Source: Antedon mediterranea (lineage: Eukaryota; Echinodermata; Crinoidea; Comatulida; Antedonidae). Taken from it: DNA of 64,000 bases. Within the stretch, counting starts at the first letter, position 1, and each line of letters begins with the position of its first letter. A program made the position numbers and the translations under genes. The stretch spans positions 563,001 through 627,000 of the forward strand of contig NC_092674.1 in NCBI RefSeq assembly GCF_964355755.1, written 5' to 3'. Of the stretch, positions 5,161 to 54,200 are shown one piece after another. Under the pieces are notes generated by a model. It did no database searches. It was given only the letters and a program-made list of their open reading frames with translations, and had not been told where the DNA came from.

Positions 5161-22716
<17,556 letters not shown>

Positions 22717-42250: not shown

Positions 42251-45200
42251 TTACCGCTTCAACATCTCTCCTTCCTTCTGACTTTCCTCAAGTTTACATC
42301 GCAGGGTTGAAAGTGCTTCTTTCGATTTTGTAAACTTTCTGTCGATACTTCTAGATGACAATTGCAGGTGTATCTGCTGAGCAATGTAAGGAACTCGTTC
42401 TGATAAAAATGCTGTTACGTATGTGACACCGTGCGCCCCCACCAGTCGTCGCGATGGACGCAAGTACTGACGTTTCTCTACACCATTTCCCTTAAAAAGT
42501 ACGTTCAATGTTACTAATAACATGTGTAGTTCTATTGGTGATGAATGAACTATAATGCAAGTGAACTCTGCAACCAAAATGGTGGCAGGAGGTTTAAAAC
42601 TGAGGAGTTTCAGCTTTTCTTTTAATGTTATGTATCTATATTTCATTCATTTTATTTTATTTACAGTATTTCGTCAAGACAGAAACATAAAAAACCATAA
42701 CCAAAACCAGTTACGTCAAACGGAATTGCTGTATTGAATTGCTGTATACATTTTCTCCACCTCTCTACTGGAGCAAGAACGAACACAGACACCGTAACTG
42801 TTTAAATGCTTTGTTTTAATTCATTTAGCTTTACAAACAATTTCAATGAGAAAACAAGTGAAATAGTGCGTCGGAACCAATCTCCAAGACAGAATTGAAT
42901 GAAAGAATAATCCATTGCTTGTGATTGGTCAACTTACTTGGGTTGCACCTACGCCATTGCGTTGCATCCAATGGGAACCAATCTTTTAAGTCGTGTTCCA
43001 CTAGAGACGCAACGCAAGCAATTTGACCAATGAACAAATAATCCATTGCTTGTGATTGGTGAACTTACTTGCGTTGCACCTACGCCATTGCGTGGCATCC
43101 AATGGGAACCAATTTTTAAGTCTTGTTCCCACTTGAGATGCGACGCAAGCGATTTGACCAATGACAGAATTGAAAGAAAGAATAATCCATTGCTTGTGAT
43201 TGGTCAACTTACTTGCCTTCCATCCAATGGGAGCCAATCTTTATTATCACCTAAGATAGGTTTGGTAAGAACGATTAAGACTGGTCACATGACAATACAT
43301 TAATGAGAAATAAATTGAACCTACCTTCAATTGTAATTTAATAAAAAGTTCCATTTGCTGACAACATTGTTCCCAGTTTTCACCCCTTTTCTTCATGTGT
43401 TCACGCAACTCCATTTTACACACCTAAAAGGAGATGTATTAAAACAGTTTGTATTACATTTTATACATAAATATAGATATATAAATACTATCACAACTTT
43501 TCAAAAATCAGCATTAAAATCACCTTAATGATGAAAGAAAAAAATATACACAGTAAAACAAAAACTTACAAGTAAGTAATCTGACCAATATATGAATTTT
43601 CTAAATGTGCGTACGACATTGCATTGTGTCAAAGTGATAACCAGCTTTAATTTATCATAACATCCACAAAGTATAAGCATTACTGATCATCATCACAATG
43701 GTCATTATCACAATGGTCATTATCACAATGGTCATTATCACAATGGTCATTATCACAATGGTCATTATCACAATGGTCATTATCACAATGGTCATTATCA
43801 CAATGGTCATCATCACAATGGTCATCATCATTGTATAGTTAAAAAATACTACACCATTGGTTATCACCCAAATTGTGTGTGAAGTGTAAAGCTCTGTCTA
43901 CACTATCAAACTTTATGTGAAAAAAAAATGTGATGTACCCATATATGGACATGATGATGACATATCACTACCATATTTGGGAACATCACATTTTTTTTGG
44001 TCAAACTAGTTTGATAATGTAGACAGAGCTTAAGTGATAAGTTATGCCAAAAAAAAGCACTTTCACATAATTTCACCACCAATGAAATCCTCACCTCAGA
44101 TGTCTGTATAATATTACTGGCCAATGTTTCATCTAATCTGTATTTCAAGCACAGATGTAATGTTTCATACGCTACTTGTGTTATAGACAAACAAGCAATC
44201 TCTATAGTCTGAAAGTTGAACCAAAAACCCCTAAATTAAACCCACAAGAAATGCATGCAATACAGTATAATAAATAACACCCAGAGAAAATGGCTTGCAT
44301 TAATACCGAAAGAAGAAGAGTGTGCATGTGAAGCTCTGCCTACACTGTCAAACTAGTTTGACAAAAAAAGTATCATGTGCCCAAATATGGTAGTGATATG
44401 CTTAAATATGATAATATTATGAAATCATTATGCCCATATATGGGCACATCACATTTTGTTTGTCACATAAAGTTTGATAGTGTAGACAGAGCTCAATGAA
44501 ATAATATAATTTTAAATGACAGAAACATAACAAAAGAATATGTATGAATATTTATATTTCTCAGAATAAAATTATTTATAACAATAGGCCTATAAAAATG
44601 TGATAAAAACAGTGGACGAGCCAATACAATGTTATGGACAATGTGCATGTGTGTGCTCACAAAATGGTAACATTAATTTAGATAATAATTATAGGCCTAT
44701 AATGTGAGCAATGGACCATCCAATACAATGTTATGGACATTGTGCATGTGTGTGCTCACAAAATGGTAACATTAATTTAGATAATAATGATAGGCCTATA
44801 ATGTGAGCAATGGACCATCCAATACAATGTTATGGACATTGTGCATGTGTGTGCTCACAAAATGGTAACATTAATTTAGATAATAATGATAGGCCTATAA
44901 TGTGAGCAATGAACCATCCAATACAATGTTATGGACATTGTGCATGTGTGTGCTCACAAAATGGTAACATTAATTTAGATAATAATGATAGGCCTATAAT
45001 GTGAGCAATGGACCAGCCAATACAATGTTATGGACAATGTGCATGTGTGTGATCACATAATGGTAACATTAATTTAGATAATAATGATAGGCCTATAATG
45101 TGAGCAATGGACCATACAATACAATGTTATGGACATTGTGCATGTGTGTGCTCACAAAATGGTAACATTAATTTAGATAATAATGATAGGCCTATAATGT

Positions 45201-48200
45201 GAGCAATGGACCATACAATACAATGTTATGGACATTGTGCATGTGTGTGCTCACAAAATGGTAACATTAATTTAGATAATAATGATAGGCCTATAATGTG
45301 AGCAATGGACCATACAATACAATGTTATGGACATTGTGCATGTGTGTGCTCACAAAATGGTAACATTAATTTAGATAATAATGATAGGCCTATAATGTGA
45401 GCAATGGACCAGCCAATACAATGTTATGGACAATGTGCATGTGTGTGCTCACATAATGGTAATATTAATTTAGATAATAATGATAGGCCTATAATGTGAG
45501 CAATGGACCAGCCAATACAATGTTATGGACAATGTGCATGTGTGTGATCACATAATGGTAATATTAATTTAGATAATAATGATAGGCCTATAATGTGAGC
45601 AATGGACCAGCCAATACAATGTTATGGACATTGTGCATGTGTGTGCTCACAAAATGGTAACATTAATTTAGATAATAATGATAGGCCTATAATGTGAGCA
45701 ATGGACCAGCCAATACAATGTTATGGACAATGTGCATGTGTGTGCTCACAAAATGGTAACATTAATTTAGATAATAATGATAGGCCTATAATGTGAGCAA
45801 TGGACCATACAATACAATGTTATGGACATTGTGCATGTGTGTGCTCACAAAATGGTAATATTAATTTAGATAATAATGATAGGCCTATAATGTGAGCAAT
45901 GGACCAGCCAATACAATGTTATGGACATTGTGCATGTGTGTGCTCACAAAATGGTAACATTAATTTAGATAATAATGATAGGCCTATAATGTGAGCAATG
46001 GACCAGCCAATACAATGTTATGGACAATGTGCATGTGTGTGATCACATAATGGTAACATTAATTTAGATAATAATGATAGGCCTATAATGTGAGCAATGG
46101 ACCATACAATACAATGTTATGGACATTGTTCATGTGTGTGCTCACACAATGGTAACATTAATTTAGATAATAATGATAGGCCTATAATGTGAGCAATGGA
46201 CCAGCCAATACAATGTTATGGACATTGTGCATGTGTGTGATCACATAATGGTAACATTAATTTAGATAATAATGATAGGCCTATAATGTGAGCAATGGAC
46301 CAGCCAATACAATGTTATGGACAATGTGCATGTGTGTGATCACATAATGGTAACATTAATTTAGATAATAATGATAGGCCTATAATGTGAGCAATGGACC
46401 AGCCAATACAATGTTATGGACATTGTGCATGTGTGTGCTCACAAAATGGTAACATTAATTTAGATAATAATGATAGGCCTATAATGTGAGCAATGGACCA
46501 GCCAATACAATGTTATGGACATTGTGCATGTGTGTGCTCACAAAATGGTAACATTAATTTAGATAATAATGATAGGCCTATAATGTGAGCAATGGACCAG
46601 CCAATACAATGTTATGGACATTGTGCATGTGTGTGATCACGAAATGGTAACATTAATTTAGATAATAATGATAGGCCTATAATGTGAGCAATGGACCAGC
46701 CAATACAATGTTATGGACATTGTGCATGTGTGTGATCACATAATGGTAACATTAATTTAGATAATAATGATAGGCCTATAATGTGAGCAATGGACCATAC
46801 AATACAATGTTATGGACATTGTGCATGTGTGTGCTCACAAAATGGTAACATTAATTTAGATAATAATGATAGGCCTATAATGTGAGCAATGGACCATACA
46901 ATACAATGTTATGGACATTGTTCATGTGTGTGCTCACAAAATGGTAACATTAATTTAGATAATAATGATAGGCCTATAATGTGAGCAATGGACCATCCAA
47001 TACAATGTTATGGACAATGTGCATGTGTGTGCTCACAAAATGGTAATATTAATTTAGATAATAATGATAGGCCTATAATGTGAGCAATGGACCAGCCAAT
47101 ACAATGTTATGGACATTGTGCATGTGTGTGCTCACAAAATGGTAATATTAATTTAGATAATAATGATAGGCCTATAATGTGAGCAATGGACCATACAATA
47201 CAATGTTATGGACAATGTGCATGTGTGTGCTCACAAAATGGTAACATTAATTTAGATAATAATGATAGGCCTATAATGTGAGCAATGGACCATACAATAC
47301 AATGTTATGGACATTGTGCATGTGTGTGCTCACGAAATGGTAACATTAATTTAGATAATAATGATAGGCCTATAATGTGAGCAATGGACCAGCCAATACA
47401 ATGTTATGGACATTGTGCATGTGTGTGCTCACGAAATGGTAACATTAATTTAGATAATAATGATAGGCCTATAATGTGAGCAATGGACCAGCCAATACAA
47501 TGTTATGGACAATGTGCATGTGTGTGCTCACAAAATGGTAACATTAATTTAGATAATAATGATAGGCCTATAATGTGAGCAATGGACCAGCCAATACAAT
47601 GTTATGGACATTGTGCATGTGTGTGCTCACAAAATGGTAACATTAATTTAGATAATAATTATAGGCCTATAATGTGAGCAATGGACCAGCCAATACAATG
47701 TTATGGACATTGTGCATGTGTGTGCTCACAAAATGGTAACATTAATTTAGATAATAATTATAGGCCTATAATGTGAGCAATGGACCAGCCAATACAATGT
47801 TATGGACATTGTGCATGTGTGTGCTCACAAAATGGTAACAATAATTTAGATAATAATTATAGGCCTATAATGTGAGCAATGGACCATACAATACAATGTT
47901 ATGGACATTGTGCATGTGTGTGCTCACATAATGGTAACATTAATTTAGATAATAATGATAGGCCTATAATGTGAGCAATGGACCAGCCAATACAATGTTA
48001 TGGACAATGTGCATGTGTGTGATCACATAATGGTAACATTAATTTAGATAATAATGATAGGCCTATAATGTGAGCAATGGACCATACAATACAATGTTAT
48101 GGACATTGTGCATGTGTGTGCTCACATAATGGTAACATTAATTTAGATAATAATGATAGGCCTATAATGTGAGCAATGGACCATACAATACAATGTTATG

Positions 48201-51200
48201 GACATTGTGCATGTGTGTGCTCACAAAATGGTAACATTAATTTAGATAATAATGATAGGCCTATAATGTGAGCAATGGACCATCCAATACAATGTTATGG
48301 ACATTGTGCATGTGTGTGCTCACAAAATGGTAACATTAATTTAGATAATAATTATAGGCCTATAATGTGAGCAATGGACCATACAATACAATGTTATGGA
48401 CATTGTGCATGTGTGTGCTCACAAAATGGTAACATTAATTTAGATAATAATTATAGGCCTATAATGTGAGCAATGGACCAGCCAATACAATGTTATGGAC
48501 ATTGTGCATGTGTGTGCTCACAAAATGGTAACATTAATTTAGATAATAATTATAGGCCTATAATGTGAGCAATGGACCATCCAATACAATGTTATGGACA
48601 TTGTTCATGTATGTTCTCACATCAGTAACATTTATTAAGATAATAATGATACAATTAATCTTCTAGTATAATCAAAAGTTTAGATATACATAGCCATTGA
48701 CAAGAGAATTTGCTGTATCTTTGTGGTATAATGACTAATAATAATGACTGGGAACGAAGTGCATATAACAGAACATATAAGTATATACTACAACATCTCA
48801 TTGTGTATAAAGAATGGGAACGAATTACATATAACAATACATATAACTACATACTAAAAATATCTCATTGTGTATAAAGAATGGAAAGTAATGGACAGTA
48901 ACAGTACACTATTAGAGTTAACTGAAAACAGGACAACATTTAGCTACACAATGTGTTAACTGAAAACAGGACAACATTTAGCTACACAATGTGTTAACTG
49001 AAAACAGGACAACATTTAGCTACACAATGTGTTAACTGAAAACAGGACAACATTTAGCTACACAATGTGTTAACTGAAAACAGGACAACATTTAGCTACA
49101 CAATGTGTTAACTGAAAACAGGACAACATTTAGCTACACAATGTGTTAACTGAAAACAGGACAACATTTAGCTACACAATGTGTTAACTGAAAACAGGAC
49201 AACATTTAGCTACACAATGTGTTAACTGAAAACAGGACAACATTTAGCTACACAATGTGTTAACTGAAAACAGGACAACATTTAGCTACACAATGTGTTA
49301 ACTGAAAACAGGACAACATTTAGCTACACAATGTGTTTAGAAAAGTAACAAATGTTAAGTCATAAGGATATTATGAACATATAACCCATTATGTGTGTGT
49401 TTGTTTGTATAAAAGAAAAGGTTATAATATTGTAGGTATGAAACACGTTATCTAATCTATTTAAGTACTTATTACTTAAAGATTTATGTAAGGTAGGCCT
49501 ATAATCATTATGTTATAGATATTTATATATAATATAACATGAACTAAACATTATAGACTTAGTACATTAAAATATATACTAATAGCAAAATCCACCTAAA
49601 TACTAATTAATGTATGTTAAACAAGATCAAGAAATATAATAAAGTGTGATTACTGTAATGATAAATAAACAACTATTTACATAATGTTCATGATTGAATA
49701 AGTATGTGTGCTTAGTGTACTGTGTTAGTACGTGTTTATGAAAATACACTAGTGAAAGGAAATCTAAATATATGTGCATAGTTTAATTGTACAATATACA
49801 GTACATAATGTTGGTGAACACTTGTACATGTATGTACATTGACCCAATTTAATGTACCATGTTTAATATTAACATAATGTACATTCAACAAACATTCATG
49901 TGCCCTGTCATCAAATGTACTTAATTCATGTACTACGTTAAATACATGGATGCACATAAACATACATTCATTTACCCTGTTATCCACAAATGTTAATGTA
50001 TGCACAAAAACATACTGTACATTAATGTAACCTGTTATCCACAAATGCATAAACATACATGCACATAAACATACATCCATTTACCCTGTTATCCACAAAT
50101 GTTAATGTATGCACAAAAACATACTGTACATTAATGTAACCTGTTATTAACAAATGTTAATGCATAAACATACATGCACATAAACATACTGTACATTAAT
50201 GTAACCTGTTATTAACAAATGCATAAACATACATGCACATAAACATACATCCATTTACCCTGTTATCCACAAATGTTAATGTATGCACAAAAACATACTG
50301 TACATTAATGTAACCTGCATAAACATACATGCACACATTCATTTACCCTGTTATCTACAAATGTTAATGTATGCACCACAAATAAATTCATGTTTCCATG
50401 TTATCACAAATGTTTGTGAACATTAATGTTACTGAATACTCAAATGATTGTTCACCTTAGAATCAACAATGTCTTGAATGCCTGCTAATATCTCTGGTGG
50501 AGCAACATCTTCTAGTTGTTTCTTTAGTTTTCGAAAGCTGGACATGTTTTCATGGTAAAAATCAAATTTACACTAGAAAAGAAAATCATTTATAAATATT
50601 TACAGTATGTGTATTATTTATATATTGCAAATATGTTAACCCCAGTCGTCTAGAGGCATAATGCAGTGGAATTGAGATTGTCAGTTGATTCCAACTTGGG
50701 AACAACCTCAAGCAAACTAAGTCATCTCCACACAATTTTGCTGTAAAAGTAATTTTAAATCATTACCTTCATTATACTACTTGCTAGTTTTACTTGTATG
50801 TTACTTGACGGCTTGAGTTGTTTAAGACAGCTTACACACATAACAAATTTGTTGAAGTGGTCCATAAGATCACCCTGTAAACAGACCAAGCTAATTACTA
50901 ATTGTAAGTATAGTAAGTTTTAGTACTACAGACTAGCCTGATCCAAGTCTAATACTAATGTTGCTTACATTGCTTCCTCTACTTGCTTGCAATGACATTA
51001 TCAGGCTTACCAAATCTATACTATTACCTTACCTGTGCATACTTAGATCTAGACTGACCTTACCTGTGCATACTTAGATCTAGACTGACCTTACCTGTGC
51101 ATACTTAGATCTAGACTGACCTTACCTGTGCATACTTAGATCTAGACTGACCTTACCTGTGCATACTTAGATCTATACTGACCTAACCTGTGCATACTTA

Positions 51201-54200
51201 GATCTAGACTGACCTTACCTGTGCATACTTAGATCTAGACTGACCTTACCTGTGCATACTTAGATCTAGACTGACCTTACCTGTGATACTTAGATCTAGA
51301 CTGACCTTACCTGTGCATACTTAGATCTAGACTGACCTTACCTGTGCATACTTAGATCTATACTGACCTTACCTGTGCATACTTAGATCTAGACTGACCT
51401 TACCTGTGCATACTTAGATCTAGACTGACATTACCTGTGCATACTTAGATCTAGACTGACCTTACCTGTGCATACTTAGATCTAGACCGACCTTACCTGT
51501 GCATACTTAGATCTAGACTGACCTTACCTGTGCATACTTAGATCTATACTGACCTTACCTGTGCATACTTAGATCTAGACTGACCTTACCTGTGCATACT
51601 TAGATCTAGACTGACCTTACCTGTGATACTTAGATCTAGACTGACCTTACCTGTGCATACTTAGATCTATACTGACCTTACCTGTGCATACTTAGATCTA
51701 GACTGACCTTACCTGTGCATACTTAGATCTAGACTGACCTTACCTGTGATACTTAGATCTAGACTGACCTTACCTGTGCATACTTAGATCTATACTGACC
51801 TTACCTGTGCATGCTTAGATCTATACTGACCTTACCTGTGCATACTTAGATCTATACTGACGTTACCTGTGCATACTTAGATCTAGACTGACCTTACCTG
51901 TGCATACTTAGATCTATACTGTCCTTACCTGTGCATACTTAGATCTATACTGACCTAACCTGTGCATACTTAGATCTAGACTGACCTTACATGTGCATAC
52001 TTAGATCTAGACTGACCTTACCTGTGCATACTTAGATCTAGACTGACCTTACCTGTGCATACTTAGATCTAGACTGACCTTACCTGTGCATACTTAGATC
52101 TAGACTGACCTTACCTGTGCATACTTAGATCTATACTGACCTAACCTGTGCATACTTAGATCTATACTGACCTTACCTGTGATACTTAGATCTAGACTGA
52201 CCTTACCTGTGCATACTTAGATCTAGACTGACCTTACCTGTGCATACTTAGATCTAGAATGACCTTACCTGTGCATACTTAGATCTAGACTGACCTTACC
52301 TGTGCATACTTACAGTAGATCTATACTGACCTTACCTGTGCATACTGTTTTTGTCATGACTTTTTTTTATTTTATTTAATAATTATATACAAATGTATTT
52401 TTTTCTTATGTTTATGGGTCTTGCGTGACAAGTATTCTCTTCTTGCAAGATCCTCTATTAATGGTATTTTTTGTATTTTCTCATTATAAATTATCATTCT
52501 TTTTTATTGTATTGTTATACCATTGATAGAAACTAATAAATGTTGAATTATTATTATTATACTTAGTTCTATACTGACCTTACATGTGCAAACTTAGATC
52601 TAGACTGACCTTACCTGTGCATACTTAGATCTAGACTGACCTTACCTGTGCATACTTAGATCTATACTGACCTTACCTGTGCAAACTTAGATCTAGACTG
52701 ACCTTACCTGTGCATACTTAGATCTATACTGATCTTACCTGTGATACTTAGATCTAGACTGACCTTACCTGTGCATACTTAGATCTATACTGACCTTACC
52801 TGTGCATACTTAGATCTAGACTGACCTTACCTGTGCATACTTAGATCTATACTGACCTTACCTGTGCAAACTTAGATCTAGACTGACCTTACCTGTGCAT
52901 ACTTAGATCTATACTGATCTTACCTGTGATACTTAGATCTAGACTGACCTTACCTGTGCATACTTAGATCTATACTGATCTTACCTGTGATACTTAGATC
53001 TAGACTGACCCTTACCTGTGCTTTGGCTAGGGACTGCATATTGCTGCGATTGGTTGGAAGAGAACGAGGACTGGCTGATGTTATCTCTAATCCATCTACT
53101 AACTGCTTGTACTGTAATAAAATAAGTTCAGTCAGTAAAGTTCAGAAGAAGGTTGCACATATGAAATCATCTGAAGTAAGCAAATGTAAAACCATTATAG
53201 TCAAGTCAAACGTACCTTTGGCAACTGGTCATCAATTTTAGATTGTACTTTATCAATATTTTCATGAATGGTAAACAGTTTTGTCATAGATTCCAGCGTG
53301 AGTCCTTCTTGCTCAGCCTTTTGGGCTTCCAATAACTGAAGATTCTCCAGCATTGGTTTACAAAAATTGCATATGCGTAAGTAACAGTGGATGTCTGGCT
53401 CCTTAGATGGGCACTGAAACACAAAAGCATATACAATACTACCAAAACGCCACACTTAAATGCTACAAAGATCTTTTAGCTTAGGTGCAGTCAGAGTTTA
53501 ACCAGGGGCCGTATTCACCAATGTTAACCACCAAAAAGTCTAAATTTGAGTATTTAAATCATTGTATAATTGATATGACTTACTCCAGTAACTTTGATTA
53601 TAGCCCAGCAGGGCTCATTTCCAAACCGATCTCGCTCATGTTGGTCAGCTACAAACAGAAGCAAGTCACGACTGGAACAGCTATGACAAGTCACAATGCC
53701 ACAAACCCGACAATTATGTTTCGGATTTGCAAGATTGAAAATCTTCTTACAAGTTTGTACAGTACATGTTTGCCGGGAATCCTTAATCTATAATGTTTTC
53801 ACTACAAATGTTTTTATCATGATAGAAGTTCAGAAAAACTATTATTTTTTAAATTGATTACAATAGAAACTTAGTTAATGAAAAGGAAAATAAATTACAA
53901 TAAAGGTGGGTGACTCCCACAAAAGATAATGTAAGATAAGATAAGACAATAATAATAATATAATATAATTTAATAACATTTTCTACAATGATATTGCCTG
54001 TGAGGATATATTTTGGGAATATATACAAATTCACAACATTTTCAGGTCAAAGGTAACTAATACAGTAAACCTTCCAAATACCAAACACCATGTGTGTGTA
54101 TGTCTGGATTTTTCAGAAATTCTGGTACAGTATTCTGAGTTTTGACTTCTTAGACTCTCAAGAAAACTTATTTTGTGAAAGTTTAAAGTTGTCAGAGAAC

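Follow-up and report, generated by a model that had tools for sequence, protein, structure and literature searches.

Why should an exon be followed directly by dozens of near-identical 5' splice sites? The question is raised by a stretch of 64,000 nt of contig NC_092674.1 of the crinoid Antedon mediterranea (positions 563,001 to 627,000; hereafter the window), which has a G+C content of 33.1%. A predicted gene on its minus strand encodes a product in which Pfam finds a pair of FYVE zinc fingers (1.8e-14 and 5.8e-7). An open frame and splice sites predict a coding exon of 96 nt and phase 0 in this gene (53016..53111, minus strand; exon 8 of an earlier sequence-only reading), with the acceptor TTATTACAG. 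Read from 53111 to 53016, its 3' end and the start of the intron are AAAGCACAG/GTAAGG (the slash marking the exon border). The predicted exon borders delimit an intron of 2141 nt (50875..53015, minus strand), 1990 nt of which are taken up by a repeat array including an insert. The predicted next exon, called likewise from an open frame and splice sites, is 39 nt long (GDLMDHFNKFVMC; 50836..50874, minus strand) and has the acceptor CTGTTTACAG.

The array is a 31-bp minisatellite with the unit CACAG/GTAAGGTCAGTCTAGATCTAAGTATG (51026..53021 by TRF, score 2807), the unit being read on the minus strand, whose sequence corresponds to the RNA of the FYVE gene. Segmentation at the junction motif yielded 58 units, from the first at 53020 to a degenerate last one at 51037; this count takes in both the degenerate last unit and the unit in which the exon's own donor and last five bases lie. 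An intact CAGGTAAG is carried by 51 of the 58 units, the exon's own site counted. The sequence-only reading had claimed about 57 tandem 5' splice sites directly after the exon, and that the unit touching the exon holds the exon's own donor. Both claims are borne out, the junction GCACAG/GTAAGG lying within unit 1 (53010..53021, minus strand; read from the sequence and the segmentation). Each unit consists of 5-6 exon bases and about 25 intron bases.

Tandem repeats spanning exon-intron boundaries have been described in amphioxus as mirages, with regular splicing said to be undisturbed in the available text of the papers (PMC3087553, PMC3902484). Two features of mirages are present at the FYVE gene: the repeat spans an exon-intron boundary (the exon being predicted from frame and splice sites), and the splice signal is retained in most units. 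The array is most probably (roughly 0.88) a mirage-type minisatellite that has grown by ordinary repeat turnover, and its decoy donors have no job. A stretch of the last 5-6 exon bases and about 25 intron bases would have been duplicated once by chance and would then have grown to 58 units by minisatellite turnover, that is, slippage and unequal exchange. The array, sitting in the intron, would be spliced out along with it. In the row of near-identical donors the exon's own would come first, the rest acting as decoys, and the choice of the exon-proximal donor would presumably be left to exon definition.

Within the array lies an AT-rich insert of about 213 bases (about 52347..52559, no strand assigned), which has a (TTA)n end and a putative target-site repeat of 4-5 bases, (A)TACT; by its look it resembles the 3' terminal part of a LINE. 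Outside the donor, the exon-proximal block (52567-53021) is more diverged than the distal block (51026-52346), at 0.042 and 0.016, respectively, as if the distal part of the array had been amplified later.

Minisatellites are common in this genome, and a dispersed satellite from elsewhere might have been inserted by chance beside the exon. Fourteen arrays were found in the 64-kb window (period of 10 or more, three or more copies, score of 80 or more), compared with five in 80 kb sampled as 20 stretches of 4 kb over contigs C1-C4, one of these five having a period of 373 bases. However, an exact-match search of the 354-Mb genome (18 contigs) places all 30 copies of the 18-mer unit core GCACAGGTAAGGTCAGTC in this array, which makes the array unlike a dispersed satellite that landed by an exon; the backward control of the 18-mer gave no exact match in the same 354 Mb. 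The unit also contains the exon's own end, and at a second gene, DHX8, the unit contains conserved coding sequence (see below). Chance neighbourhood is accordingly regarded as extremely improbable.

Growth in place by repeat turnover would have left the FYVE gene with its 57 decoy donors, and a frame test led to a stop codon for every one of them, 55 within the retained array and two further on. Splice-site slippage, likewise suggested by the sequence-only reading, would thus disrupt the frame or run into a stop at all 57. Since the use of any decoy wrecks the reading frame, the decoys must mostly be passed over; the use of the first donor in the FYVE gene is inferred. The units look like poor acceptors as well, given that pyrimidines make up just 6 of the 15 bases preceding the unit's AG. 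The variation at donor bases (see below), the stops and the poor acceptor look are consistent with a passive repeat, to be disregarded by splicing.

The row of donors could instead have a function. It had been proposed from the sequence that the array serves as a U1 sponge or protector, the donors recruiting many U1 snRNPs and blocking premature polyadenylation in the intron. In other animals U1 telescripting is established, according to the partial text available; U1-binding motifs within introns can suppress premature polyadenylation in this way. The computed pairing of CAGGUAAGGUC with U1 is strong (-11.5 kcal/mol, against -14.0 for the full consensus) and equal for the common unit and the exon's own site (-11.5 kcal/mol for both); the array holds 51 sites with strong pairing. 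Three AATAAA and one ATTAAA are found in sense orientation in the 2141-nt intron. All four lie within the AT-rich insert, however, and these possible poly(A) signals came with an insert that, judging from its flanks, landed in an existing array; the intron, moreover, is merely 2.1 kb long. The exact unit core is unique to this locus, and other genes carry unrelated units.

Selection on the U1-pairing motifs would be expected to leave the donor bases better kept than the remainder of the unit. Donor sites carried 9 distinct variants per 72 and the other sites 48 per 282 (P 0.25 for a donor count this low) in a comparison of 8 of the 13 arrays in nine blocks, with the window array entered as two blocks and three arrays being without an exon; as the arrays were picked for intact donor words, this comparison is biased towards fewer donor variants. 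No clearly better retention of donor bases, and hence no clear sign of selection on them, was found in these eight arrays. In the main block of the window array, mismatch rates were 0.017 at donor sites and 0.016 elsewhere. The exon-proximal block showed 0.008 at donor sites (1 of 120 cells) versus 0.042 elsewhere (14 of 334), and these fewer donor changes could hint at constraint, the count being small. Taken together, a sponge or protector role appears very unlikely, and the proposal is not upheld.

Other donor-side arrays were sought by searching the 354-Mb genome for three tandem CAGGTAAG with gaps of 15-45 and then of 24-45, of which 100 of 225 and 100 of 111 matches, respectively, were listed. 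At least 12 donor loci besides the window were read, seven on C1-C4 (gaps of 15-45) and five on C5-C9 (gaps of 24-45). Searches with the backward word supplied four control loci among the matches listed (of 215, up to C4). As both sets were drawn from matches listed only, neither the 12 donor loci nor the four controls are complete sets. The 5' edge was read for an exon at the 12 donor loci and both edges at the four controls; 3' flanks were also printed for seven of the 12. Exons were judged by eye from frames and splice sites. The raw numbers of triple-donor matches (225, and 215 with the backward word) were discarded in favour of a count of loci, because a single array yields dozens of matches. 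A pattern with spacing of 46-76 (577 matches) was also set aside, as it is dominated among the matches listed by a dispersed 79-bp satellite on C3; two loci new at this spacing (L039 and L040) showed no clear exon and are excluded from the 12. The satellite itself (G000, C3:19.63-22.30 Mb) carries CAGGTAAGAGG in the units listed, forms many blocks over at least 2.7 Mb and is maybe pericentromeric.

At eight of the 12 donor loci the array starts at an exon-like open frame's own donor, and upstream of the frame stands a start codon or a site that resembles an acceptor. These include exons of DHX8 (L001; PDB E 1.1e-20) and TIMELESS (L004; Pfam 6.1e-11, PDB 6.3e-18), an EGF exon (L006; 2.4e-7) and an exon of an ENaC/ASC channel (L035; ASC 4.7e-9), whose own donor, GTATGC, lies in a degenerate first unit. 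For an MCT-like exon (L038), MCT2 was matched weakly in the PDB (E 0.27-0.29), the top row of that search being an unrelated chloroplast protein (E 0.16). The remaining three of the eight, called on an open frame plus a splice site or start codon alone, are an exon without a name (L003) and one signal-peptide-like first exon found at two paralogous loci (L036 and L037). The exons at L003, L036/L037 and L038 had no Pfam match. The donor-array architecture was found on unrelated genes, with unrelated units. No exon was seen at the 5' array edge in the other four donor loci (L002, L005, L007 and L034), nor at either edge of the four control arrays, one of which (L008) lies within an intron between two exon-like frames. 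The difference between 8 of 12 and 0 of 4 is not significant (Fisher P 0.077).

Two of these cases deserve separate description. The same signal-peptide-like first exon recurs at the paralogous loci, at 30.48 and 30.50 Mb of C6, each time with the same 53-bp mirage; as the two loci, 23 kb apart, have array and exon in common, the array was probably copied along with the gene. In L034 (C5:6.498 Mb), where no exon was seen, the units are partly inverted (CTTACC...GGTAAG), giving a donor-like word on both strands.

The direction of origin can be read at DHX8. Of the unit's bases there, 29 come from the exon (one base, the codons for MQIHLTEPP and one further base that opens the next codon) and 8 from the intron, and its coding part is conserved in DHX8 structures (PDB). 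Since the unit holds conserved coding sequence, it was from the exon edge that the array grew. The residues that come next (GDIL) are not encoded on the intron side, which indicates that an existing intron was enlarged. If the whole array is spliced out from the first donor to the following exon, all 58 residues match DHX8 without a gap (PDB 6hys, E 4.3e-31). The first donor is thereby inferred to be the one used, protein conservation providing indirect support.

On the acceptor side, a parallel array in an ABCC5-like gene had been noted in the window and is found as described: an 80-bp unit in 15 copies (13863..15065, minus strand) lies over the acceptor of the NBD1 exon as a second mirage and repeats the beginning of that exon, which codes for Walker A. 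A genome search with an acceptor pattern gave 34 matches at 10 loci, the reading of which included the 3' edges of L041, L049 and L050. One of the 10 loci is on an exon, a small acceptor array at DDX54 (L042; PDB 9.3e-14, no Pfam match for the exon). At L041 and L047 the array ends shortly before an exon-like frame and leaves its acceptor uncovered. A 49-bp array at C10:23.34 Mb (L049 and L051) carries TTTTCAGG or TCTTCAGG in its units, and part of it can be translated as an open peptide (GLPVTIGSNAGLFVV); its 3' edge showed no exon. In the window, a 99-bp array of 41 copies (about 4 kb, 44613-48651) showed no exon at its edges.

The sequence-only reading had further suggested that splice-junction sequence seeds minisatellites in this genome. 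That some arrays grew from junctions holds; no clear excess over chance was found. The donor word CAGGTAAG occurs 10,601 times in the genome and its backward form 6,247 times. If the whole excess (4354) consisted of true donors, 41% of CAGGTAAG would be donors, an upper bound because satellites also carry the word. Against this share of up to 41% under random seeding, 8 of 12 arrays lie on donors (P 0.067), or 7 of 11 when the paralogous pair is counted once (P 0.11). Per occurrence, 8 of 4354 compares with 4 of 6247 (Fisher P 0.083). In the window, where array edges were read in minus- and plus-strand frames, 2 of the 14 arrays straddle exon ends, with 0.25-0.5 expected on an assumed 30-60 exon ends (P 0.03-0.09).

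The donor-side and window comparisons all lean towards junctions as preferred birthplaces of minisatellites, for example by a mechanism linked to splicing or to R-loops at junctions. No estimate is clearly significant, however; acceptor-pattern loci lie on an exon in just 1 of 10 cases, and the array loci in C1-C4 number seven of donor type versus four of the reversed word, among the matches listed. Preferential seeding is possible, yet as an account of these arrays it is doubtful: few loci were counted, and no support comes from the acceptor pattern. The wider picture, in which junctions outside amphioxus favour the birth of minisatellites, introns are rebuilt gene by gene from tandem copies of the splice sites that they carry and the exon-proximal one has to be picked among dozens of near-identical donors, is similarly speculative and rather improbable. 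Ordinary repeat turnover without a job for the decoys is preferred for the FYVE gene. The array then sets up a natural competition among dozens of near-identical 5' splice sites, in which an open frame comes from the exon-proximal one alone. Compared with RNA, such loci would show the weight of position and exon definition versus donor strength in splice-site choice.

The array may be compared with three known systems. U1 telescripting differs in that the motifs of the FYVE-gene array are without a clear sign of selection. The Rogers model of intron gain by tandem duplication of AGGT (named in PMC3087553), for which a case in potato RdRp has been described (PMC4974935; both papers as far as their available text goes), resembles the arrays here in its tandem copies with AG/GT at the joints. 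Intron gain of this type was nevertheless rejected, as it requires an exon-only unit, whereas the FYVE-gene unit is mostly intron sequence and an existing intron was enlarged at DHX8.

The closest likeness is with the mirages of amphioxus. The name itself reportedly goes back to a 2002 paper on amphioxus Adh3. The G+C content of Branchiostoma, about 41%, lies above the 33.1% of the window, and searches of the genome for the GFP, tunicate-type GH6 and COX1 families gave no match, a result short of proof of absence for GFP and GH6, for which no control genome gave a match either. The available text of the same amphioxus papers (PMC3087553, PMC3902484) reports mirages in genes for globin, troponin C and PGBD5. 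Like the FYVE-gene array, the mirages of Adh3, globin BflGb6/BflGb9, troponin C and PGBD5 span an exon-intron boundary and keep the splice signal in many units; as far as that text goes, they lie on the donor or the acceptor side and have units of 10-160 bp. Among the literature matches listed, in the text available, no other report of such arrays beyond amphioxus was recognised. The FYVE-gene array is a real, clear case of this known kind, with 58 units compared with 3-6 reported in the available text for amphioxus globin BflGb6, and the presence of about ten such genes in one genome, seven with firm homology, widens a kind already known from amphioxus.
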